This document shows, one piece after another, positions 2,320-54,579 of a stretch of DNA of 64,000 bases. Numbering within the stretch: the first letter of the stretch is position 1; each line of letters opens with the position of its first letter. The notes beneath the pieces are model-generated. The model was not told the DNA's origin. It searched no databases and saw only the letters and a list, made by a program, of their open reading frames with translations. Location: assembly GCA_025174535.1 (NCBI GenBank), contig JALBUN010000007.1:434001-498000 (forward strand), given 5' to 3'. The translations under genes and the position numbers were made by a program. Origin of the DNA: Cantharellus purpuraceus (Eukaryota; Basidiomycota; Agaricomycetes; Cantharellales; Hydnaceae).

Positions 2320-3180
2320 ATGCTAGATAGGTCGAGTAGTGCTTTCTTGTCCCGCAGCTTGGTAGATTAGAGTGGGCTGAACTTTCTGAGAGCTCCTACA
2401 TCAACGACTCGCACTGTATGACACTCTTTGTAATTTGTGCAGCTGATAATAGATTATCATGTTCTCATTTCCAGAATAACACGATGGGACGCACACGAAG
2501 GTATATTTCTCGACATTTTAGGGATGGCATGGTCGACATGGGATCAGTGGCACCAGCGGCCTGCGGTTCTTGAGTGACGCCGTTTTCGCTGACGGGGCTA
2601 ACTAGGCTGGGTGGGTCTGGCCATCGTTACTGAATGACACTTGGAGGGTAGAACCCCAGGTAGAGCACAGAGACGTTCTACACAAGAGCGGAGTACTCAG
2701 GTAGGTGTGGTACAGGAGTGTTTGAGATCCGGCTGAGCAGTGGGAATGTGTGAAGCATGAGTTGTGTATATACGCTGTGTTCAATGGGGCCAAGCATTAA
2801 GGACACACTTGTATTGTCCAAGGTCATTGAGCGTGCTGCTCGCATGAGAGACCTTTGTCCATTGGTCTTCTCCAGGGTTGTTATTCGTAGAGTCTGGACT
2901 CAAGAAAGCAATAGACAAGGAGGAAGAAATAAAGTTTAGCTATTGTTCGTTAGCCGGGCCACAGGCGGAACGTGCCGGCGCCGATGGACCAATGAGGAGG
3001 TGCTTACATAATTAAATCCGGGGTCTGGGACGCAAAACATGGACCTACAGCGTGCACCAGTGGGAGGAAATAAAGACGAGCGAGTTTCTTTTCAACTTTC
3101 TCACACTGATTCGTGTAAAAGCCCCCAGCCTCTCTCTCTCTTCTACCACCACCACCATCTCATCCCTCTCTTCTCCACTC
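2320..3180. other. Intergenic region and HMG-gene leader
   Basis: No supportable gene. It holds the 3' flank of the hydrolase gene and the promoter of the HMG-box gene. The last 60 nt before 3181 are strongly CT-rich, as in many fungal leaders. Confidence 0.5.
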
Positions 3181-5054
3181 ATGTCTGCCGACTCCAACAC
3201 ATCCTCTTCGTCTAAACAATCCTCGTCTGGCAACGGGGGACATATCAAACGTCCTGCCAATGCCTGGATCCTATTTCGCTCAGCCGTGATCAAAACCTTC
3301 ACTGATCAGCCAGGCGTTCGCCAAGCGACCCTCTCGGGACTAGTTTCCGAGATGTGGAAGAACGCAGCTCCAAGCGTGAAGGCGTACTATAAGCATCTCG
3401 GTAGCATCTCGGTCGCCGAGCATCGCGCCAAATACCCCGACTATCGCTTCCACCCCGTGAAGAGGGAAGAGAAGTTGCGACTTAGGGCTGAGCGCGAGGC
3501 TGAGAGAAAGGCAAAATCCAAGCTGGCGCGTGGAAAGGCATCCAGGCCACGTCGCACCGTACGCAATGACCCCCCGCCCCCGTTGCTCACAACCACTCCG
3601 CTGTACGGTCCCGCTGGCCCTCCTCGTCCCGTGTCCGACGCGTCGTCCTCGTCCTCCCAGACCAATGCCGCCACCCAGCCTGCCGTTCTACCCCCCACCG
3701 TCCCATTCGTGTGGGTTCCCACCCTGCCTGTCGTGCAAGCGCCCATCCCTGCCGTCGTGCAGGCACCCGCTCAGCTTCAGGCACCTACCCCCCCCACGAA
3801 CGATTCGACTCCAACTGCATCGCCGTCTGCACAGGGGACGTTGAAGCCATCGCCATCCCCTCCCGTCGTGCAGGCACCTGCTCAGCTTCAGGCACCTATC
3901 CCCCCCACGAACTATTCGACTCCAATTGCATCGCCGTCTGCACAGGGGACGTTGAAGCTGTCGCCATACCCATACCCTGTCCCGCCGTTGGTTGCCCCTC
4001 AACCCAGCAGCATGCTACCGCCAGCGTCGACGTCGATGTGGCAGCAGCAGCCACAACAGCAGCACGTCCAACCGCAACAAGCAGACTGCGGCGTCTCTCC
4101 TTCCGCATTGCAGGCACCGCAGACCCCATCACTCGACCTTCCAGAGTACGGACTCGCATCTGTGGGTTTATTTCTTTAACTTTCGAACACTAGTTTAACT
4201 GACCTTGCATGCAGCATCAGCTCACAGTTCCGCTCCCTGCACAACCCTTGCAAGAGGGCGTGGAGTGGGATCATAATGGATTCCCCCTGTCGTACGCATC
4301 AATGGAGAATCCCAGCAATGACCCCATGATGTATATCTTCGGCACTGGTGATATCTTCAATAATGAGCAAGTTTTCGATGACGCCAATGGTATCAAAGTC
4401 GACAGCAGCGGCACGGACCCCAATTCGTTTGGCTTCTTCAACTCTTACGGCTCGACCGGTTCGTTCGATGGGTCGATGGCGGGTCCGAGCGGTACCAACC
4501 ACGGAATGATGCAGGGCAACTCCCAGGGCTTCTCCGAGTTGTTCAACTCTTTGATCGAAGAGGATCCTTTGAGCGTCGCGGGCCCCAGCCAGTTGGATGT
4601 GCCATCGGCCAACGTGGGTGAGACGTCGAACATGCACTCCGCTGAGCTTGACCAGATGATGGCGTCGCTCCTTCAGTCCACTGAGAGTGAGGAGATGTGG
4701 GGGAGCAACGGTGCGAGCGGGAGTGGGTCTGAGGAGGCTGGGTCTATGGAACAGGCTCAGTACGAGCTTACGGAGCAGCAGGTCCAGTATTTCCCTCAGC
4801 CTACGGCGCAGCAGGACCAGTATGTCGCTCAGCCTATGGAGCAGCAGGACCAGTATGTCGCTCAGCCTACAGAGCAGCAGGTCCAGAACGCCCCCCAGCC
4901 TATTGCGCAACAGGCTCAGTACTACCCCCAGCCTGCGTATGCCCCGCCCGCCTACGTTCCTCCTGCCGGTGCGACCTACGCTTCGACCCGACGTGTGGGT
5001 GCCGACTGGAAACATCGGAAGGTCTCTTTCGGGTCCGACACCATGTCTACATGA
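3181..5054 (+). CDS. HMG-box DNA-binding protein
   Basis: Two exons, 3181-4161 and 4215-5054, joined by a 53-nt phase-0 GT-AG intron (606 aa). An HMG box lies at about residues 21-95 (HIKRPANAWILFRS ... YYKHLGSISVAEHRAKYPDYRF), followed by a basic K/R-rich tail. It is of the fungal MATA-HMG/SOX-like type, which binds and bends DNA in the nucleus; mating or development roles are typical, but the target is unknown here. The rest is Pro/Gln/Ser-rich low complexity, including two 37-residue repeats and five 11-residue Q-rich repeats. The ATG at 3181 was chosen because a CT-rich leader precedes it. An in-frame ATG at 3052 would add 43 residues of leader-like sequence. Confidence 0.85.
3753..3974 (+). 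repeat. Two tandem 111-bp in-frame repeats in the HMG gene
   Basis: Units 3753-3863 and 3864-3974 are nearly identical and encode 37 residues each, rich in P, Q, A and S (VVQAPAQLQAP ... SAQGTLK). A partial VVQAP unit precedes them. The period is a multiple of three, so copy-number change would keep the frame. Confidence 0.9.
4785..4949 (+). repeat. Five 33-bp repeats encoding Q-rich 11-mers
   Basis: Five consecutive units of the type QYVAQPxEQQD lie in the C-terminal half of the HMG-box protein. The second and third units are almost identical at DNA level. This is likely a flexible activation-type region. Confidence 0.85.
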
Positions 5055-20053: not shown

Positions 20054-21949
20054 TTAGGTGTATGTGTACCGCTGCAGACGCTCAGGATCAGGAAATCTGC
20101 GTGTTGTGTGTTTAGGTGCCTTCAAATCTTGTAATTCGACATCCAAGTACGTATCGCCGAAAGCAGAAAACGCGCTGTTGGCCGCAATTGGCCCATGCAT
20201 ATTCTTCCGCAGGCTGAGGGTGATGCGACTCATCATGGTGACCTACATGATCATTCAACGTGCTAGACCTGACACCAAATCAAATCAAGTTACCGTCATT
20301 CTGCGCACAGGCGATGATTTGACGTGAGGATGTAAAGACAAGTGAACCTTTGATCTATACTTACAGCAGCTGCAATCTATGCGAGCAGTCGGTCTGAGTA
20401 TTGAATTGACACTATTGAGAGTTGAGGGACTCACTGGGCACATATATTCTTGATTCCGTCCTGGGGAATTAATAACAAGTTGAAGACGAGAATGAACATT
20501 GCACCAGGAGGTAAATGTACCGGTGCTTTGACGATCATCACTGCCAGAACGAGATTCACTACAACGATAACGCTACACACCATTCTGGGTGAGTCATGCG
20601 AAGTGAAAGAACACCATCAAAACATTACCTAAAATAGAGCAGACCATCCCGAATGAGGACAGCTACCACCTTTCCTGCAACTTTAGCGCGGATAATGTAT
20701 TGTGTACGCAACACAATCAGAACGATGACTGTGGTGTCATAAATAAGAGGAGTCCAGGCAGTGGCGGATACCCAGCCCCCTCTGAAGGTCAAAGTGTGAG
20801 CACTGATGTCGTAATGTTGATTACAGACTCACATATTGTGACCAGCTTGTCCAAATAACATACTACAACCTAGAAAGTGTGTTGCAAATTGATTTGTAGA
20901 GACAAGGTCCAGGAACATACCATGTATGCCAGGATGGATTACAGCTAAGATTTCACCCCATCAAGAGAAAGTGAAAACATTGTGGAAGAGAACTCACGAC
21001 CCGTCGTTGTCAACAACCATGTGTTGATACCAACCATAACTAGGAAGATAACTGATATGAGGCCCAGCACGAATCGATTCCCTTGGTACACAGCAGCTAC
21101 ACTAGTTGGTGAGTAAATAATCAGGTGCTAGAACTTGCGTCGAGTCCCAACATCGGTATCATACCGAAATGCCATCATCAACGAAGCAATGGCGACGCCG
21201 ACAAACCCCATTATCCCTTCATATACAACAAAATGCGTACAGCTGGATGTGTGCACCTATAGTGAGTCATTAATTTCTATGCGGGAATGCCACGGACGTC
21301 TGGAAGGTGGAGCACTGAGACTTCAGCAGACAACGAGGGAGAACAGACTTACGAAGTCACTCCAGGCATGTGATGTATACGCTGTAGATCTCTATTAAAG
21401 CTAGTAATACAAGAATCAGACAAGAACTTGTGTACCATTGATGTTAACAGCAAACGCCAGCGGGGTAAGGTAACGATTCTTGGGCCATTTCAACATGCAG
21501 AACACGCTAGTTTATCGAGCGACGTACAATCAAGAATAACCAGATCACTGGTAATTTAATGGTTCACAATTACAATAAGATGATGGGTCCAAAGATTCAC
21601 CTAGTCGTTTGCTGCCACGCCAGACGAATTTAATCTGGAAGGCAAGCACAGGGTCAACGTAGGAACACAAACAGCAGTAGATCCCACTACTTCATCATCC
21701 AATGTGAGGAGATGGTCATATAAAAGAATCGTGTATCCAGCCAAGCCAATATACTGAGTCAAAGGCGTCCCGATTTTAGGATCGTAAGTAACAAGCCAGG
21801 CTGCTCATTCCACGATACCTACATTAGTAGCGAAACTGTTTGATACATCAGTATCGTAAACCACGTATGTCAAGATGTCGACTGTCTCAAGAAACTTACA
21901 GTTCTTGAACTTCATCCTTCATGGAGACTCTGCCCGAGCTATTCGTCAT
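20054..21949 (-). CDS. DUF6533-type multi-pass membrane protein, copy 1
   Basis: Eighteen exons, all GT-AG: 21949-21900, 21835-21823, 21753-21691, 21634-21601, 21547-21528, 21478-21436, 21381-21353, 21299-21298, 21242-21165, 21101-20998, 20944-20921, 20869-20833, 20781-20629, 20584-20521, 20460-20435, 20376-20365, 20300-20294, 20242-20054 (315 aa). The N-terminus has the DUF6533 core NYIGLAGYTILLYDHLLTLDDE, then several hydrophobic helices (LVIWLFLINRYLTPLAFAV; FVLGLISVIFLVMVGI; CSVIVVVNLVLAVMIV) and the terminal block TVTMMSRITLSLRKN before a charged tail. The family is abundant and functionally uncharacterised in Agaricomycetes. Exon 8 is just two nucleotides. A paralog with the same exon plan lies 2 kb upstream. 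Confidence 0.85.
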
Positions 21950-24028: not shown

Positions 24029-25990
24029 CTATGATCTCAGCCCTGGATGTCGAGGGTCCCCTGGCTCGGATGAGATGTCAAGAACATGCTCTTCCAAATC
24101 CCTCGATGCGACCAGGCTATGGCCTCTGAGAGGCTCCATTGATGGATTCCTCGACTTTCTGTGGGTCTTTCGAAACTGTCGGCCATCTCTGCGAGTTACC
24201 AGCACATCCGTGAAACCTTCAGAGTCAATAGCTTCGAGGTATATGTTCTTGCGAAGGTTGAGCGTGATACGGCTCATCATTGTCACCTAAATATTGCTTA
24301 TGAATATGCTTTGACATCAAGAGTTCTGTAGACTTACAGTGATCCTGCATGCGAGCAAGCCATACTTAAGGTTCAAAACCAGACAAGCGCAGAATTGCGA
24401 GGACTCACAGCAGTTGAAATCTATTTGTATGTTAGAGATAGACTCGCAAAACATCATAGCTTGAGAAGTGACTTACTGAGCACAAATATTCTTAACACCG
24501 TCCTATGTAAACTTGTAAACATGATGGACAGCCTAGTTCTCGGAAGGACGTACGCTGCTTCGCACAATCATCGTGGCTAATACAAGATTTGCTGACAGAA
24601 TAACACTGAAGAGCCTGTTAGCCACTGCTCGGGCAGACGTTAAATCACTGACCTATAATACATTAACCCATCTTTCATGAGGGTCTCAATCACACGATAC
24701 TGCCCTACAATCCTGACCCGAAAGAGATCTCGAGTGCGAAACATTACAAGTCCGACTACGACTGTGTCATACAGAAGTGGAAGCCACGCTGAAGCAGAGC
24801 TCCATATACCACTGTCAATGAATTTGAATTTCATTCGAACTCCATTATTGAAGCTGGTTTTACACACATTTTGGGACCAAAAATCATGCTGCAGCCTGCA
24901 TGAACACACAGTGAGCCACCTTCAAGGTCTGTCTAGTACAGGACGAACCATGAATTCCAGTGGGATGATGTACGGCTGATTAGCATGGATTTCAGCTACG
25001 TCCATTGTGTGTGTGATCTTGTGGGCTATGTTACTCACGTTCTCCCGAAGTTAGCAACCAAGCATTAACGCCGACCATACTCAGAAACAGAAACGCTAAC
25101 ACAACAGGTATGATACGGTTTCCGCGGTATATAGCTGTCACCCTGAAAGTATGCGGTGAGGACTCTGAAGCGACGAAAGTGCAGTGGCATACCGAACTCC
25201 CATTATCAACGACGCGATAGAGATGCCTATTAAGGTCATGCTCCCCTCATATCTCACGAAATGTTGGCATCTGACAGAAAAGCACGTCAACGTTGTATAT
25301 TACAATCATGAGAGCTTTTGCTTAGACACACAGCTGACGAGGACGCAGTTCAACATGGTGACTTCAACTAGATATAGAGAACTTACCAAGGGAGTCCATA
25401 AAGGCGATGTGTACGCTGCAGCAAGGGGTCAGGCAGGTACAGTATAATGGGCCGGATTATGTACCGTTGATGTTAATGCTGAACCCAAGAGGAGTAATGT
25501 AGCGGTTCTAGCAAGATAGATTGGTTGGCATCGGAAGAGTACGAAGAGCGACAAAATAATACAAGAAGGAAGAGCCATATGACTGTGGACATGACTGAGC
25601 ACAATATGATATCACAAATACGATTAACCTCACCGACAGATTTTTTGCCATGCCAAATATATCGAACCTAGAGCCAAAACGTCAAAAACAATGTAAACAT
25701 CCCCCAGGGCAATCCGATGCCTCAACATACCTCATCATCAAAGGTTAACAAATGATCATACAACAGAACTATGAAACTGGCGAGCCCAAAATACTGGCAA
25801 GGAAGGAAGATGTGTGAGTTGAAGTTATGGCTTGAGTCAGAATCGTGGGTCCTGACATTAGTTGCAATACTGCATGAAGAGCAATACGATCAATGCTATA
25901 ATTGGAAAGGACAGAACAAGCTACCTACAGCTCTTCATATTGCAAAGTGTAGTCTCCCTGTGTAATGTTTGTGCTATTCGCAACATTCAT
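24029..25990 (-). CDS. DUF6533-type multi-pass membrane protein, copy 2
   Basis: Eighteen exons, all GT-AG: 25990-25929, 25869-25857, 25793-25731, 25667-25634, 25582-25563, 25507-25465, 25415-25387, 25333-25332, 25270-25193, 25142-25039, 24975-24949, 24895-24868, 24811-24653, 24614-24554, 24502-24477, 24420-24409, 24344-24338, 24286-24029 (341 aa). It contains NYFGLASFIVLLYDHLLTFDDE, VIWLFLLNRYITPL, HFVRYEGSMTLIGI, SASAWLPLLYDTVVVGLVMF and TVTMMSRITLNLRKN, with a longer, charged C-terminal tail than copy 1. Most internal exon lengths equal those of copy 1, including exons of 13, 20, 2, 12 and 7 nt. This indicates tandem duplication after the exon plan was set. The function of DUF6533 proteins is unknown; the topology predicts several transmembrane helices. 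Confidence 0.85.
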
Positions 25991-40908: not shown

Positions 40909-43900
40909 TCACTCCATGGGGTTCATCATGGCATCGAACATGTCCATGTGCGAGTTGTCGTTGGAATTGTTCGACTGCTGGTCGTTGAATGGAAAGCTCG
41001 GGTCGTTGCTGTTCCAGTAGCTCGGCAGCATGGGCGGATGAGAATATCCCACAATCGGCGAGTTTCCTCGTTGCAGGAAATCGACGGGCAACATGGGCGG
41101 ATGCAGGAAGGAAGGCTGGGACGAAGAGGACGAGGAAGAGGACGTCTCGTTGGAAAGCGCCATCGGGGGATGAAGGTATTCCATAGGGGCATCGTCGGGG
41201 AGAACCATCGGAGGGTGGATCTTCTGGGTCGACGAGGAGGAGGAGGAGGATTCTCCGCCTGTCATCCACGACGAAGAGGCATCAAATCCCTGATACGCAT
41301 ACACCGAATAAGGTAAACCATATGAAGAAAACGGAGGCGAAGAGGTGGGAGACTTGTCCTTGCTCTTATTATCGTTGGCGCTGGCCTTGTTGCTAGTGTT
41401 GCTATGGTTACCGGTGCCGCTGCGTACGGACGTGGCTGACGGGGGAGGCTCCGTCGGAGTAGACGAACTCTCATATGAAGAGGACGACAGACGGCGACGT
41501 TTACTCCCTCTGTCCTCCATACCATACTCCGAGGATTCGCCGCTGAAAGACGTCTGGATTGGCTGAAGGTCGGAGCCGGACGTGTACTGATACAAATAGT
41601 CGGGATGGTACGGCCCGGGAAACCTTGAAAACGACGCTGCACTTGATTCGCCGGAACTGTCGTTCTGGTCGCGGGCCGAGACCGAACTCAGCATATCATT
41701 GGAGGGCGAGCTCTTCGATGCGTGTCCGACATTGGAGGACGTGTAGTCGTAGGAAAACTGCGGCGTCGTCTGTTGTTCGTCTTGGCGTTGTTCGTCCTCA
41801 GCCGACGGCTGAGGGGTCGCGGCGCGCGCAGGTGATGCGCGTCGGCTTGTACCCGGGCTAGCAGAGGGGGTCTCAGAACAAGAACCAGCCAAGCCAGCGC
41901 GTCTTATCTCGTGCCTTGAGCGTTTCCTTATCACATCTGACTTCATGGACAACGGACGATTGGTTCCGTGAAGCTTGTAACTATAGAAAGCAACATATCA
42001 ACATGTGATTTCTGGACCTCGCAACAGAAAGTACTCACTAGAGTCCGCAGCTATGAAGAAGAAGCGCATTTGAAGATGAGCGAGAGTCCAGGTCGCGATA
42101 GATCATATGCACTTACGCATTGCAAACCGTCTTGCCTTCATCGTCCTTACGCCACAGGGGCGTTGCGGTCGTGTTGCAATTAAAACATTTGGCTATGGGA
42201 AAGTTTACGGTAAAGCGACGAGAACGAGGACTGAGGGGCGCACCGCCAATGATCTCGGTATCGATGGCTCTGGCTTGATTATGAGTACTGCGTGCGTTAT
42301 CGCCTTGCTGCGCGCGCATGCTCTTCGGCCTAGGTCGCTTGTGCTGCACTTTTACGTTAGCATCTGATTTGAAACCAGAGGAAAGCTTTCTAATGGCGCA
42401 CTAATTTGCAATACAGCCCGCATGCGTTGCAGTTGAGTTCGTCGTTGAGACCACGTCGCCACAATGGGGTGTGGGTGGCGCCGCAGTTTGAGCATTCCGT
42501 CTTGACTCCCGCCGGCGTAGACGTGGGCGCCACAGTGGCACCCGGTGCGGTTCTGGCGATGGTGGGACTGGTGTTGCTGCTGGTGCTGCTGGTGCTGTTG
42601 CCGGACGCAGAGGATGCGTTCTTGTGGAGGGCCATCGGATTCAACGTCGTGGCCGCGGCGGGGGCGGGGGGTGGGCGAGCGCGCTGTACACTGGAGGGAC
42701 GGTTAGGAAAGAAAGGGGCAGACACGGGATAGCTGGATTGCGGCTGCTGCTGTGCAGAGTTGGAAGAAGCAGAGGCGGTAACGGCTGCCTGTAACAACTG
42801 CGCCATTTCGTATTCCAAATCAAATGGTTTGTGATTATCCTCTTGCCCGCCGGTGTCGTTGATCTTCTTGTCGGTGGTGCGTCGCGCGTCGCCTTCCCTT
42901 GATTTTTCGTCGGTGAGCTGGGAAGTATCAATGGAAGCCAGGATATCGCCCCAGCTGTCGGGGCTGTCTCCGTCGACATCTAAGAGCTCGTCCAGCGGTA
43001 ACTCTATAGTTGGTCTAGAAACGCCCATCCCTCCATCCGGTGAGCCGTCCGTTCCAGCGTATGACATGGTGACATCTTCGCCGTAAGTGTGAGAAGAAGA
43101 AAAAGATGGGGAAGGATACAAAAGAGCAGTAGGACCAAAGTTGTTGGAAAAAAGGCCGGGAAGTCGTACAGTAGGTTGTATGTTAGACGAGGGAGAGCTA
43201 CTGGAATTAGGGCTGGTAGGGTCAGTGACAGAAGTGATAACATGGGGGATAGTAATGAGCTGGTCTGCCATTGCGCGCGACTGTTGACCGTTGGTTTGGA
43301 GGTCATCGGTCGTCGGGGGCCGGGCAGGGGATCGTTTCATTTCGTGTTCTTTCTGGGTGGCGGGGCCAGTTTTGGAGTTGTCGACTTTCGGTGCTGGCTC
43401 CTTGAAGGTCGACTGTTTCTTGACGGGGACTGCAGACATGGTGAGCTTGGTGGCGTGGGGGCTGACTTGGGAAGGAGAGGGGGTGTCGAGAGAAAACGTG
43501 AACTGCATCCTCTTCATGCCACCCGACTGAGCGCCTTCACGAAGCCGTTCGATCTCCTCTGCGCGACGCCGCATCTTGTCGGAAGACTGGGTACGCTTGT
43601 AACCAGGAGCACGGAGTTCTTCAATGTTCCTGAGAGGGTGTGTGAGCACCAACAGGCCGGTGGCGGGGGGGGTGATATGGACGAAAACGCACTTTCCCTT
43701 CTCCCGATCGAGCTTGTCGCCCATTGTGCGGGAGAGTTTCTTGAACTCGCGCTTGGACTTTGCGTTATCGCTTTCGACCATGATGTTGTGAAGATGCCAG
43801 AGCCGCCAACTGAGGTTCTCGAGACGCTGGCCTTGCTCGAGATGAGCGGCGACTTTGGTGCAGACCTTCCAGGTTTTGGTCAAGGACTCGCCGTCGTTCA

Positions 43901-44014
43901 TGTTATGGAAGGCGACGAAGGACTTGTTGCCCTGTGAGGGCGATGAGCGAACGGGAGACTTTAACTGGCGACAACAACGGGACTTGCCTTGAACTTGAGA
44001 ATGAAAGGCGCCAT
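40909..44014 (-). CDS. GATA-type transcription factor with DUF1752 and two zinc fingers
   Basis: Exons 44014-43988, 43931-43693, 43629-42402, 42343-42117, 42050-42039, 41980-40909 (934 aa). The N-terminus MAPFILKFK joined to GNKSFVAFHNMNDGESLTKT and WKVCTKVAAHLEQGQRLENL is the DUF1752/AreA-type nitrogen-regulator domain. Two GATA fingers follow: CSNCGATHTPLWRRG...CNACGLYC (about 467-498) and CFNCNTTATPLWRK...CNACGLYYKLHG (about 551-588). They are split by a short K/R-rich linker without the Cys-rich block of siderophore regulators. The C-terminal third is Ser/Pro-rich. It likely binds HGATAR sites in nitrogen-regulated promoters; this role is inferred from domains. Intron 1 begins GCAAGT (GC-AG). 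A 12-nt exon encodes CGL and most of the following Tyr codon in the second finger. Confidence 0.88.
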
Positions 44015-45777
44015 GGGCAACGTCTGGAGAATCAGTCAACAAGCTCTGGAGGAAGAAGAGGGGATCGATGGCAGAGCAAGGGCTGGAAAGAGGAAAGACG
44101 TGAGGCGTAAAGAGGAAAGACGATGGCTCAAGCCCAAGTTCCGGGGGGGGAGAAGAAGCGTTAAGATAGTTGGATGAGAGAATGAGTGCGCACTGCCCGA
44201 AGACGTGGAAAGTCTGCACGTTGCGGTCAGGCTCGAGCAAATATAGACAGTCCGCAATAAGCTCGTGCATCGGGACGAAAAGAATGCCCAGGTACATATT
44301 GCAGCGCAATGCCTTGTGCTTTTTCCCCTGCTTTCTGATGAAATCTCGCCACTGGACGTGCACCCGTGACCATGCAGCATGCATCCGCACCGAGTCCCGT
44401 GTATTTCCCTGCCCCTTCCCTCGGACCGCCGTATCTTCTGCCTTCGCACGCTCATATTCACCCTGACAATAGGGGAGGGAACAGATGAAACTTTGTGTCC
44501 ATACCTTGCTCTCCACACACACACAGGCGCAAGCCAGCTCGGCGTTCATCTCCATCCAGCTGTCAGAACACCGGCCCACCAGACTGTTCTGTTCCCTCCC
44601 AAGCGGCTCCACGATGGCCTGTGCTTCTTTCTCGTAGTCACTGCCCCTGTCCCGGCAACTCGCCGTAGCATGACAGCCCAACCCACCATTCGAACGTTTG
44701 CTGATGTTTCAGTGCCGCGCACAATCCTCGTGTCCATCGTAGCGCCGGAGCGAGACATGTCAAGTCGTGGACGTGCGGGGTAAGGGATCAAGGATAAATG
44801 CCGATCATCGCTTCTTTCCATTTGCTCTGATGCTACTGTACAGGCTGTAGGGTGGATGTACAACAAGCTCACTACGAGGACCGTTCCAAACAGCGCAGTG
44901 CACATTAGCCCATGACAGGTGATCTCAGTGCACATTCTCGTCACATCCGGCGCCACCTGTGCAGGATGTGTCAGATGGCAGAATCACACCTCAGATCCTC
45001 ATCTTGGAATCATCAGCGAGCGAAAGAAAGACAGTATGTAGTTGCAAAACCCTGCAGAACCTGGGGAACGCAAGGTGATCGCTTCGAAGCCCCCCAGAAG
45101 TGCGGGGGGGCAGGATCGATCGATGCTACCACGATGCGGGGTGTAGTTCGTCACTCGAGTCATAAGCAAGTGCCTAGACAGCGGAGCTTTCCGATAGCAT
45201 GGTCCGGGAAAGAACATACAATGTACAGGATCCTGGCCTCGCTTGCATTGCCGTCACTACGCGCTGCAGCGCCCCAGCGACCCTTGAAAGCCAAATTGCC
45301 AGTTTCCTCAACAAAGAGCAGCTGCTCCGTAGACCACACAAACGCCCCTGATAAGAGCCTGAGGAGTTGCTTCATTCGGTATCCTTCTCTGAGGCTTCGT
45401 CAGGAACCATTAAACATCAATTCATGTCGATATGCGATATGGGTTGTGGCAGGTTGTAGCATGGTGTTTTCAAATCTGACCCTAATCCAGTGCTGAAAAT
45501 TGCACAGGGTCTCCAGGATGACAGTAGCTTGGAAGCACAGTCCATCACGGGGAGGTGAATTGCTGAAAAAAAAGTGATTCTCAGTGGAGCCTCCCTGATA
45601 GGAAATAGGATCCAAATGTAGTTTTGCGAGCAAAGCACACGGACAAGTAGTAGAGCAATAAAAAACAAACAAGTCGTGATGTGGACGCGTTATGATTACT
45701 TGTGGATGATCTGACGTAAGCAGATCACACCCGTAGACCTACACTGCGCAACTCCCTATGTTTTATATCCAACTTTT
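44015..45777. other. Divergent intergenic region, GATA factor/NEO1
   Basis: A 1.8-kb spacer between two divergent starts. It holds several HGATAR-type sites (for example TGATAA near 45348 and TGATAG near 45596), which would fit autoregulation by the adjacent GATA factor, but such sites are common by chance. A long open frame (42390-44681, minus) runs upstream of the chosen start but is out of frame with the ATG at 44014. Confidence 0.4.
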
Positions 45778-50218: not shown

Positions 50219-53200
50219 TTAACTGCTGCTACTGCCAGGCGGTGGAGAAGGAGCGGCAAATGCGGTGCCAAAGGGAGAAGGATGTTGTGGAAAGCCGCCT
50301 TGCCATTGCTCAGGAGCTGTGCTGCCGCCCCACAAGCCGTTTGGGGTTCGAGCAGGTGTAGCGAAAGGCATACTTTGATTCCCTGCCCACCCTGATCTCG
50401 CAGAAGACGGCTCTGTTTGGGGAGTACCCCACGCTTGCCCCACAGCGCCAGCAACCACTCTCCGGCCGTGCGGCAAGATGGGCTCGTCGTCGTCCGCCAC
50501 CAACGCTGAGCTGCCTAGCACCGTTTCAGGAGCTGGCGTCGAACTCGATGACTTGAGCTGCGGCGAGCCGGACGGCCTATCGTCTTCCTTTGACGCATTT
50601 GGCCGCGCGATCGGCGCGATAGGACGCTGAACAGCACCAAAGGAGCTGGCGGGGGTCGGACGGTCTTGAACAGACCCTCGCCGCAGGTGGCCTGTGCTCG
50701 GCCCCGGTGCAGGGCTGAACATACTAATAGGCGATCCTGGAGTGTTGGGGTGTCCTTTGGAAGGGGGAGCAATTGCTGCAGGTGGTCCCAGCGGTCTTGA
50801 AAACCCATCGAAGCCTCCTGGCCCAACGGGGTATCCACGTGGTAACGCAGAGGGTCCGAGAGGGGGTGGAGGAATACCTTGCCCTGAGGCAATGGAATTT
50901 CCGGGGCCGTAAGACATATAAGGACCAGGAGGACCGTTAAGGAAAGGCGCGGTCGTTCGAGGCGACATGGACGACGGCACAGGGGCGCTTGGGGAGGGGA
51001 ATTGTCCGTGAAATCCTGCACCTACAGAGATTGGAGTCGTTGATGGCGCAGGAGATTGCAAATGCGATGTCGACGCGACGGACACGGGATGCTGCGGTTG
51101 CGGCACCGCCGTGTTCTGGATTTGCGTGATGATCGCCGGCCTTGGGTGCGGCTGTCGTAGAGCAGATTGCGCAGGAGTACTGGACGAACTGGATGTAGCA
51201 GAGGCCGGTGGCTTGGTGAGGATCTTCTTAGGGGCCACTGCAGGAACATTGCGCGAAGGACCGCCAGTGGCATTTCTTGGCGAGGTGGGCATACCACGAC
51301 CCTTGGATGCATTGACACGTTCCCGCTGGAGCCGCTCCCTGGCCTCGCGCTCCTTGCGTTCCTCTGCTTCTTTCTGCAGACGCTTTTCCCGATCCTCCTT
51401 CTCTTGCTGCTCACGTTTCGCCGCTGCCGCCGCCTTGTCCGCAGCAACCCTGGCTTCTTTCTCCTCCCTTGCTTTGCGCTCCTTTTCTTCCCTGTCTCGA
51501 CGCTCAGCTTTGAGCCTCTCTTCTCGCTCTTTCCGCTTGCGTTCTTGCTCAGCTTGACGCTCTTTCTCCTCTGCGACTCTTTTCCGCCGCTCCTCCTCCC
51601 TTCTCGCACGCTCCTCTTCTTGGGCTTTTCGAAGAGTCTCCCTGCGAGCACGCTCCTCCTCCCGCTTCTTGCGCAATTCCTCTTCGTGGGCTTCCTGTTT
51701 CGCCTTCAGCGCAGCCTCCTCTGCAGCCTTATCCGCCTCGCGCTGTTTCCTCTCCTCCTCCTTTGCCTGCTTTTGTAGTCTGTCGAATGATTTGAATGAT
51801 TCCCCAATGTTAATCAAAAAACATGAACTGACTGCTTCTTGGCCTTCTTTTTCTGGTTCTCCTTCTGTTTCTTTGCCTCCTTCTCCTGTGCCGCTTTATC
51901 CTCATCTTCGAGCTCGCGGAGTAGCTGCAGCTGCCTCTCCTGCGCGACCTTTTCACGGTAAGCTTGTAGGACACGTTGCTCAAACATGCGGGCTGCGAAA
52001 ATGGAGAACATTCGCTTGCCCTCCTCCATTTTCTGCTCCTCCGTCAGGGCCTTGGCAATAAAATCTCAGTTTTGTAGCCACGCGAAATAGACGCGAAACT
52101 GGACGTACCTCCTCCTCCTCTTCATCATCGTCTTCATCCTCATCATCGTCCTCATCCTCATCGTCGCCGTCCTCATCGTCTTCCTCGTCTTCACTGTCCA
52201 AACCTACCTCAGCTGCGGCCTCTTCCTCCCGCTGCATCCGTCGCTCAGCCAGTTGCTCCATCATCTCCAAGAATTTTTGCCCATCATTCTTTAGCAGATC
52301 ATCCGCGACAGTCAAAATATTGCCTGGGCCTCCACGATACCGATGTTATTAGCTTTCACATGGCAAAAAAAAACCCTCACCAGTAACAGTGAGATTATTT
52401 CCAAAATTGAAAAAATCGTCTCGATTGTTCGGCTTAGCTCCATTAACTGCGGGAGGTTGTCTACCTTTCGGTAACGGTGCAGGAGCAGCGGCTCTCCTCG
52501 GAGGACGCTTCTCGTCTGGTTCCTCCTCCTCCTCCTCCGGCTCCGGCTCCTCATCCTCCTCCTCATCCTCCTCCTCTTCTTCTTCGTAATCCTCATCCTC
52601 CTCGTACTCCTCCTCGTCCACATCCTCGTCGTCGAACTCACTTTCCTGCTTCTTCCGTACACCGTTGACAGCGCCCTTACCTGGCGGCACAGCAGCTCGC
52701 GGAGGGTGGCCGGAAGGATGGTGAGTCTTGCCGTGATGATGCGGCCCGCCTACGACAGCGCCGTTCTTGTCGAGCTCGACGCTGCCCGGAAATGGGCCGG
52801 GTCCCGGGGGCGGGGGAATTGTTCCGCCCGAGGAGGCATATTGCTGCTGATGGTTTGCGTACTGTTCGAGCTCTTCGTAATAGGCATCGTACAGTACCTC
52901 GAGCTCTTCTTCGATCGCATTACTATATCATCCCACCGCATCGATTGATTCGAATATACAACAAACGCATGCACAAACGTCAGCGCACGCAAAATACACA
53001 TGGACAGACTGAAGGCAGAAAAAAAGGAAGAAGACACTACGCACCGCTTTCGACCGCAAACAGCGCAGGAACAACTATGTTTCTGTTGTTCCTTCATTTT
53101 CTTTAGCACTGCCTCCTTCTCTACCTTGACTAGAGCACGACGCTCTTCCTCGCTAAGTCCCAGCCAAAATTCCTTGATCCGCTCACGCTCCTCAGTTGAG

Positions 53201-54579
53201 TTGGTACTCCAAAGTTTATTGCTCTTTGGAGGTGCAGCAGGGGGGCGTGTCTTATTTGACGTTTGGGATGACGGTGGTGATGGATGATGGTGCGTGTGCG
53301 AGTAGGCATGTGCAGGAAGTGGTGCTTTGGAAGCAGAGCGGGATGTTCGCGTTTGTGGAGGAGGAGCAGCAGCAGCAGCAGGCGCCGGAGCTGTATAGGA
53401 CATGGGCTGCTTCCCTGCAGCGCGGGAGCTCGTGAGAGGAGCAGAATGTGTTGTTGCCGGCGGTGGGCGAGATGCGGGCATGGGAACAGTCGGAGCAGGA
53501 AGTGGCGTTGGTGGAGTTGGATTTGGTGTAGGAGCAGGCGGCTGCACAGCAGTGAGAGGGACTGGAGCAGGAGCGATCTGCATACTGCCTTTCTTCTTCT
53601 TCTTTTTACTTTTCTTCTTCCCACCTTCGCCTTCAACGCCACCATGACTTTGCGGTGCCGCAGGACCGAACATGCCATTGTCATACCCAACGAACGTGGC
53701 CGAGTTGGTAACGTCACCTTCCATTTCGGGTTCATCTACGTTCTCATCAACCTCGTCCTCACTGTAATAGTCATCTTCCATAGCCTGCCCGTCTTCGCCA
53801 CCACCAAACTCATTGAGCAAAACGACATTGGTGGGGGGTAGCGGACCTCGAGGCGGTTGGCCAGGCGCAGGAGGTAATGGACCAGTAGCTGTTGCAAGAG
53901 TCTGCTCCATGGCGTGGTTGAACGCAGGATCTGAGAATATAGACGGATCAAAAGGAAGTGACGATGGGTATGCGCCAGGTGGTTGAGTTTGACCACTTTT
54001 GGGGCTCATGCGACTTGCACCCGAGTCAATCATCTGTTGAGCAATAGCGAACATAGACTGCGCCTTTGCCCGTTCGTTCTGGTTGACATTGGGATTGGTA
54101 CTTTGGTTATATGTCATCTTGACGAAATTCTTGATGTGAGACGGCATGGATGCCCAGTAGTCATCTTCATCAGGAGTATCCATTCGACGGTACAGATCGT
54201 TCGCAGTAGCTATTAACTCTGCTTGCGCTGCCGCAGTCGCATTGAGACGAGCCGTTGCCGCTGCTGATGCTGACAATGATGCCGTAGTAGATAGATGAAC
54301 TGACTCGAGCTCAGGTGAGAGACCCGTCCTGTGTATAGAACGCGGACTTCCGGGGTTAGGCGGAGGAGATGTGACGGCCTCGAGCTGAGGTAAATCATCG
54401 TCGTCATCGGCGAAAGATGGGTTTGCAGGCAAGTTCGGGTCAGCACCCTTTGCCTTTCCCTTCTTCTTTTTCTTCTTCTTTCCGTTGACGGCGGGCTCTG
54501 GAGGCGGCGATCGAGGAGTTGGCTGCAAGGGGACACTCGTTTGTCGATTTGGTGTCTTTTGTGCTTTGGTGGCTGCCAT
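50219..54579 (-). CDS. NST1: Stress response protein NST1
   Basis: Exons 54579-53045, 52922-52381, 52323-52109, 52050-51833, 51779-50219 (1356 aa). The order of segments fits NST1: a Lys-rich block ([12 protein letters not shown]), a central region with [20 protein letters not shown], a second acidic stretch of Glu/Asp runs, the conserved [20 protein letters not shown] and [10 protein letters not shown], and a very long Glu/Arg/Lys-rich coiled coil (about 51.3-51.8 kb), then a Pro/Ser/Gly-rich tail. NST1 is linked to salt tolerance and to P-bodies and mRNA decay in yeast. Intron 1 (122 nt) is longer than usual. The stop lies 142 bp from that of the convergent NEO1 gene. Confidence 0.88.

Follow-up and report, generated by a model that had tools for sequence, protein, structure and literature searches.

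The mRNA of a DUF6533 gene of Cantharellus purpuraceus very probably includes an exon of only two nucleotides, CT, situated between two short introns that are removed separately. The gene, here called copy 2, is an intron-rich DUF6533 gene for a seven-helix, receptor-like membrane protein. It occupies the minus strand of contig C7 within the window, the stretch of 64,000 nucleotides (C7:434001-498000 of a 40-Mb assembly) that was analysed, and its DUF6533 domain (PF20151) gives a Pfam match at C7:459680-459793 of 31.2 bits against a cut-off of 24.1. Each of the two introns would be defined by its own GT and AG, CT would make up positions 1 and 2 of the codon before a conserved Cys near the start of helix 3, and the junction between the introns would set the reading frame. 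On direct reading all the lengths and bases that the initial annotation had given for copy 2 (29 nt, 53 nt, CT, 61 nt and 78 nt) are right. Its proposal of a real, selected 2-nt exon gains support from the enumeration of splice solutions, a third copy, the W-x4-C spacing of cDNA-like homologues and nine more paralogs, some of which allow alternative readings.

Table 1. Features of the DUF6533 genes; positions are those of the window unless a contig is named
Feature	Position	Strand	Basis
Copy 2 exon YFGLASFIVLLYDHLLTFDDE, DUF6533 start	25731..25793	-	sequence reading and Pfam match
Copy 2 exon VRYIWHGKKSV	25634..25667	-	sequence reading and homologue alignment
Copy 2 20-nt exon (V)IWLFLL, acceptor GTCCACAG	25563..25582	-	sequence reading and homologue alignment
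Copy 2 exon NRYITPLGFSININ	25465..25507	-	sequence reading and homologue alignment
Copy 2 29-nt exon (A)YTSPLWTPL, phase 1 to 0	25387..25415	-	sequence reading and paralog pattern scan
Copy 2 intron 1, 53 nt, GTAAGT...TCAG	25334..25386	-	sequence reading and splice enumeration
Copy 2 predicted 2-nt exon CT, positions 1 and 2 of the Leu codon preceding the conserved Cys	25332..25333	-	splice enumeration
Copy 2 intron 2, 61 nt, GTGTGT...TCAG	25271..25331	-	sequence reading and splice enumeration
Copy 2 78-nt exon (L)CQHFVRYEGSMT...	25193..25270	-	sequence reading and homologue alignment
Copy 1 29-nt exon (A)YTSHAWSDF	21353..21381	-	sequence reading and paralog pattern scan
Copy 1 predicted 2-nt exon AC (Thr), 53 nt past the donor	21298..21299	-	sequence reading and splice enumeration
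Copy 1 78-nt exon (T)CTHFVVYEGIMG...	21165..21242	-	sequence reading and splice enumeration
Predicted TT 2-nt-exon genes	C10 (three), C9 (two), C19:233885, C21:111069		pattern scan and enumeration

The acceptor GTCCACAG of the 20-nt exon of copy 2 was chosen from the homologue alignment, the other acceptor giving an excess of four residues. The exon upstream of the paired introns ends in phase 0 and the exon downstream starts in phase 2, so that two nucleotides (modulo 3) must stay between them. CT is flanked by the AG of one intron and the GT of the other as an internal exon, and is needed for the frame of the conserved protein: with CT kept the product reads W T P L L C Q H F V R Y E G, and direct joining of the outer exons leads, as had been stated for the skipping of CT, to a TGA stop, computed here to come after seven codons, upon which the rest of the protein would be lost.

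Splice solutions between the conserved exons were enumerated for single introns (GT-AG and GC-AG) and for pairs of GT-AG introns. For the pairs the outer sites were fixed, no intron shorter than 40 nt was allowed, and the inner exon could not exceed 30 nt. Within these limits each of copies 1-3 has exactly one open two-intron solution, the 2-nt exon at offset 53; lowering the intron limit to 38 nt adds one further solution, with a 17-nt exon, in copy 1. Open single-intron solutions that hold the frame with odd inserts or deletions also exist (8, 25 and 26 in copies 1, 2 and 3), and genome annotations of homologues often pick insert-bearing models at this place. A single intron with a shifted donor or acceptor, for which the AGCTGT of copy 2 would be a chance occurrence, is nevertheless very improbable, since none of the listed solutions of this kind yields the W-x4-C spacing that, among the solutions listed, is kept only with the 2 nt and that is seen in every alignable cDNA-like homologue (below), and since offset 53 is common to three copies.

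The same geometry is found in copy 1 and in a third close C7 paralog, copy 3, that was located by genome search. The introns of copy 1 are 53 nt and 55 nt long; copy 3 has the exon GT 53 nt past the donor, followed by a second intron of 52 nt. The second donor is weak in both (GTCCGT in copy 1 and GTTTGT in copy 3), and joining the outer exons without the 2 nt leads to a stop after 7 codons in copy 1 and after 1 codon in copy 3. Direct reading bears out that the flanking exons of copy 1 have the lengths of those in copy 2 (29 and 78 nt) and that the intron sequences have diverged: among copies 1-3 only 8, 13 and 17 of 44 positions of the intron-1 interiors are identical, and the copies have no DNA repeat of at least 40 nt in common. 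An AGNNGT at one common offset in the three copies appeared in just 1 of 200,000 Markov shuffles of the intervening sequences. This test and the third copy uphold the conservation of the exon in a paralog; the initial annotation had also called that conservation independent, a point that does not stand, as shared ancestry rather than independent origin accounts most simply for the likeness among the copies.

Protein searches with copies 2, 1 and 3 gave 201 (best 120 listed), 33 and 23 matches, with 151 distinct homologues among those listed; the copy-2 query, which also served as reference for the spacing profile, carried four extra residues from the wrong acceptor. The homologues divide into 87 from NCBI genome annotations and 64 from short unnamed contigs. 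The latter have uninterrupted open reading frames, in most cases of 300-390 codons, and most of the contigs are 0.9-3 kb long; these sequences are thus very probably cDNA. For each copy the cDNA-like homologue nearest to it shows the spacing predicted: WTPLIC for copy 2 (P0001, 76%), WSDAAC for copy 1 (P0008, 83%) and WTPDIC for copy 3 (P0010, 66%). Ramaria rubella and Gautieria morchelliformis, both Gomphales, supply some of the nearest named proteins, at 69% to copy 2 and 82% to copy 1 respectively. All 62 short-contig proteins that could be aligned keep the W-x4-C spacing exactly (2 others could not be), as against 49 of 73 alignable genome-annotated proteins (14 not alignable; p=7e-8); the measurement used a profile built from the short-contig set itself and so favouring that set.

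The cDNA-like proteins bear as well on the idea that the 2-nt exon is real but regulated, an on/off switch in which inclusion gives the receptor and skipping gives a frame-shifted message for decay. The early stops that follow skipping in copies 1-3 and the weak second donors of copies 1 and 3 would suit such regulation, and skipped transcripts, giving no full-length protein, could be missed among the homologues; however, early stops attend any frame-breaking exon, and with all 62 alignable cDNA-like homologues displaying the spacing of inclusion a switch of this kind appears improbable. In the cells of C. purpuraceus, we infer, CT would be spliced in constitutively. A translational frameshift was rejected because the cDNA-like homologues carry the codon within one continuous open reading frame.

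All 24 departures from the spacing among the genome-annotated proteins are inserts, of 1 to 16 residues. A valine at W+4, the product expected of read-through at the donor, is enriched in the broken annotations (7 of 24 against 8 of 111; p=0.006), but the R or S predicted before the Cys from read-through at the acceptor is not (13 of 24 against 50 of 111; p=0.50). In eight control segments, several of them containing copy-2 introns, the annotated set is 95-100% exact. Three further segments were left out of the controls. Two of these vary in length in both sets, the A-to-W segment immediately upstream (70 of 78 annotated and 55 of 62 short-contig proteins exact) and the H-to-C segment further down (42 of 80 and 39 of 63); the third, which holds the four extra residues of the query, has the common length in 69 of 79 annotated and 56 of 62 short-contig proteins. 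A cruder regular-expression count of the NRY-to-C distance, superseded by the profile count, found the value 25 in 40 of 48 short-contig proteins (of the others 7 gave 24 and 1 lacked the motif) and in 35 of 72 genome-annotated ones. Annotation thus errs preferentially at this site, as a hidden 2-nt exon would cause it to do, which suggests a predictable error, at a single place, in many public mushroom models of the DUF6533 family. The species with broken annotations belong, we presume, to the Gomphales, Boletales, Polyporales, Agaricales and Gloeophyllales.

DUF6533 matches number at least 148 in the 40-Mb genome (150 of 216 candidates were scored), many of them clustered, which amounts to a large receptor-like expansion. 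Three of these matches, C16:359147, C22:35096 and C41:12113, have identical scores on three contigs and perhaps represent duplicated segments or uncollapsed haplotypes. For comparison of gene structures 53 loci were used, namely 52 of the at least 148 listed profile matches together with copy 1, and were scanned for a 29-nt open exon, an intron, k nt, a second intron and N-TG[CT]. With k=2 the pattern occurs in 14 of the 53 loci, as against 2-6 loci for each other k from 0 to 11; for k=2 the reverse strand has none, and 20 shuffled sets average 1.45 with a maximum of 3. The control with other exon lengths is not clean: 23, 26, 28, 30, 32 and 35 nt gave 8, 2, 4, 0, 3 and 3 matches, six of the eight at 23 nt being TT genes again. 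Sorting by eye left 10 of the 14 loci as genuine and 4 as chance, the former comprising the three C7 copies (AC, CT and GT) and seven genes of another subfamily with the exon TT. A GT exon also occurs, in layouts of a different kind, in two more paralogs, C4:145910 and C10:198491. In the second the Cys is preceded by two extra residues and the same frame soon afterwards meets a stop, so that this gene may be damaged or hold another intron.

A candidate 2-nt exon is therefore present, at or beside the site, in 12 of the 53 paralog loci of this genome, and the readings are not equally restrictive in all of them. C21:111069 has the 2-nt solution only; C9:788650 could also be read with a 5-nt exon and C9:804166 with a 26-nt exon; and five of the seven TT genes as well as C4:145910 also allow a net loss of one nucleotide (k=-1), which in the TT genes would use the poor donor GTTGTA. 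The recurrence bears on whether the copy-2 site is an assembly error or a pseudogene frameshift. One base lost or gained would create the same phase conflict; yet 12 paralogs, spread over six contigs (C4, C7, C9, C10, C19 and C21), show both the conflict and its solution, and the remainder of copy 2 reads as conserved protein, which leaves such an error hardly credible. The initial annotation had set orthologs with an uninterrupted exon or another intron phase, together with transcripts lacking CT, against the 2-nt exon, and this combination did not turn up. The divergent paralog L056 (C19:65482-65658), intronless at the site, reads W-S-T-A-M-C with unchanged spacing, which is what one would predict for coding 2 nt. 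A search with a hand-made family peptide returned only the three C7 genes and a gene on C19 (6 matches), and scans of bacterial and archaeal genome contigs and of viral contigs confirmed no relatives.

At the homologous site another solution predominates in an expanded DUF6533 subfamily of 25 genes (class 3), whose exon ends in ...SLQ or similar. In these genes 92-109 nt separate the phase-0 donor from the phase-2 acceptor, with AG|TAAGT or a near variant of it in the middle. Removal of the inner intron would bring the exon-final G up to TAAGT and create a new GTAAGT donor, from which the outer intron would then be removed to give, for example, ...SLQACNG... in frame. The class-3 genes fit, as far as their sequences go, the definition of a [D1,2] stwintron: a donor is rebuilt in this way in 22 of the 25, cases that are not independent since the genes resemble one another, and it is GTAAGT in 17 of the 22. 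Other junction offsets from 0 to 8 occur in two genes only. The stwintron genes lie on C3, C8, C16, C17, C18 and others (e.g. L054, L085, L086 and L101), and C8:197202 is one more candidate outside the 25. In at least one gene, C17:241590, judged by eye, the frame would likewise survive removal of one intron ending at an upstream acceptor, with an insert. The net effect of the stwintron, -1 nt, equals +2 modulo 3, and since the acceptor lies one codon farther from the Cys the length of the protein at the site is equal.

The prevalence of stwintrons in class 3, together with the TT genes that formally permit both readings, might be taken to favor a stwintron in copy 2 itself instead of a 2-nt exon. 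In copy 2, however, the exon-final G and the CTGTG that follows the internal AG rebuild no GT donor of the kind that a [D1,2] stwintron needs, and the enumeration gave no k=-1 solution for any of copies 1-3, so that splicing of copy 2 as a stwintron is exceedingly improbable. The 2-nt exon of copy 2 would instead depend upon two short introns that are recognised by intron definition and taken out one after the other. Exon definition is described as very unlikely for a 1-nt exon in the excerpted text of PMC4674806, and this should hold for 2 nt too.

Over the 53 loci the tally is 12 with the 2-nt exon, 22 with the stwintron, 3 of the stwintron class without it and 16 others; a compound intron thus appears to be kept in 34 of 53 relatives, with a net +2 nt in 12 and -1 nt in 22, and the compound-intron site is by this comparison old in the DUF6533 family. 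A broader reading, for which the chances seem about even, is that an ancient compound intron before the helix-3 Cys of the mushroom DUF6533 family has had its inner junction slide by one codon, yielding either a 2-nt exon (+2) or a [D1,2] stwintron (-1). These forms would be interchangeable because +2 and -1 agree modulo 3, and the 2-nt exon would then be conserved, and often misannotated, across the Agaricomycetes. One genome and one family would thus offer three solutions of the same intron site (a 2-nt exon, a nested intron and no intron), a natural series that makes the origin and conversion of tiny exons and stwintrons directly testable.

Ultra-short exons are known as a kind. The excerpts of PMC12940212 describe a single-nucleotide exon in Fusarium CYP621A, confined to one P450 subfamily in one genus and confirmed by SRA reads. 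It resembles the copy-2 exon in belonging to a fungal nuclear gene, in being too short for annotation tools, in having been found through a phase conflict and homologue alignment, and in its conservation among relatives; it differs in that the DUF6533 exon has two bases, occurs in several subfamilies of a paralog family and is predicted from DNA sequence. Plant APC11 and VPS55 have RNA-verified 1-nt exons that, in excerpts of PMC4674806 and PMC8831610, are likewise ultra-short, conserved and usually absent from annotation, and APC11 copies without the introns keep the base, much as in the DUF6533 case. Unlike the latter they are plant exons of 1 nt, and the excerpts describe no stwintron at a homologous site. 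Among the Ascomycota, the [D1,2] stwintrons of Hypoxylaceae and Xylariaceae, as excerpted from PMC12403724 and PMC9024468, similarly have two introns removed in sequence and a junction that fixes the reading frame, whereas copy 2 keeps 2 nt rather than losing 1; excerpts of PMC5639578 and PMC6616335 mention the absence of the stwintron or of the gene from the Basidiomycota. Basidiomycete micro-exons of P450 and bglA genes, given in excerpts of PMC1184071 and PMC9142197 as 6 bp and 5 bp at the shortest, are comparable small exons amid introns of ~50-60 nt. Excerpts of the open-licence literature on ultra-short exons, fungal microexons, DUF6533 and stwintrons mention no 2-nt exon in the DUF6533 family, and those on stwintrons and micro-exons describe no conversion between the two; within that literature the new features here would be the deep conservation and the alternation of stwintron and 2-nt exon.

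The product can be considered through the AlphaFold model of the homologue P0001 (mean pLDDT 80.6), which has seven long helices and whose 50 listed PDB matches are all G-protein-coupled receptors, the best of those listed with E=2.7e-5, TM 0.48/0.55 (query/target) and rmsd 6.3. The residue that corresponds to the 2-nt exon is I86, directly before C87 and near the start of helix 3 (84-116) in the model, and W82 is the conserved W. C157 lies between two short predicted strands joining helices 4 and 5, and C87 and C157 may, we presume, pair as in class-A receptors. According to excerpts of PMC10949477, mushroom fruiting bodies need snb1, whose product has a DUF6533 domain, for their patterning. 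Within the window, Rfam gave no match over gathering scores between 20000 and 26000, and Pfam found HMG box, GATA/AreA zinc-finger and NST1 domains in the open reading frames at 3052-4179 (+), 42390-44681 (-) and 52750-54579 (-).
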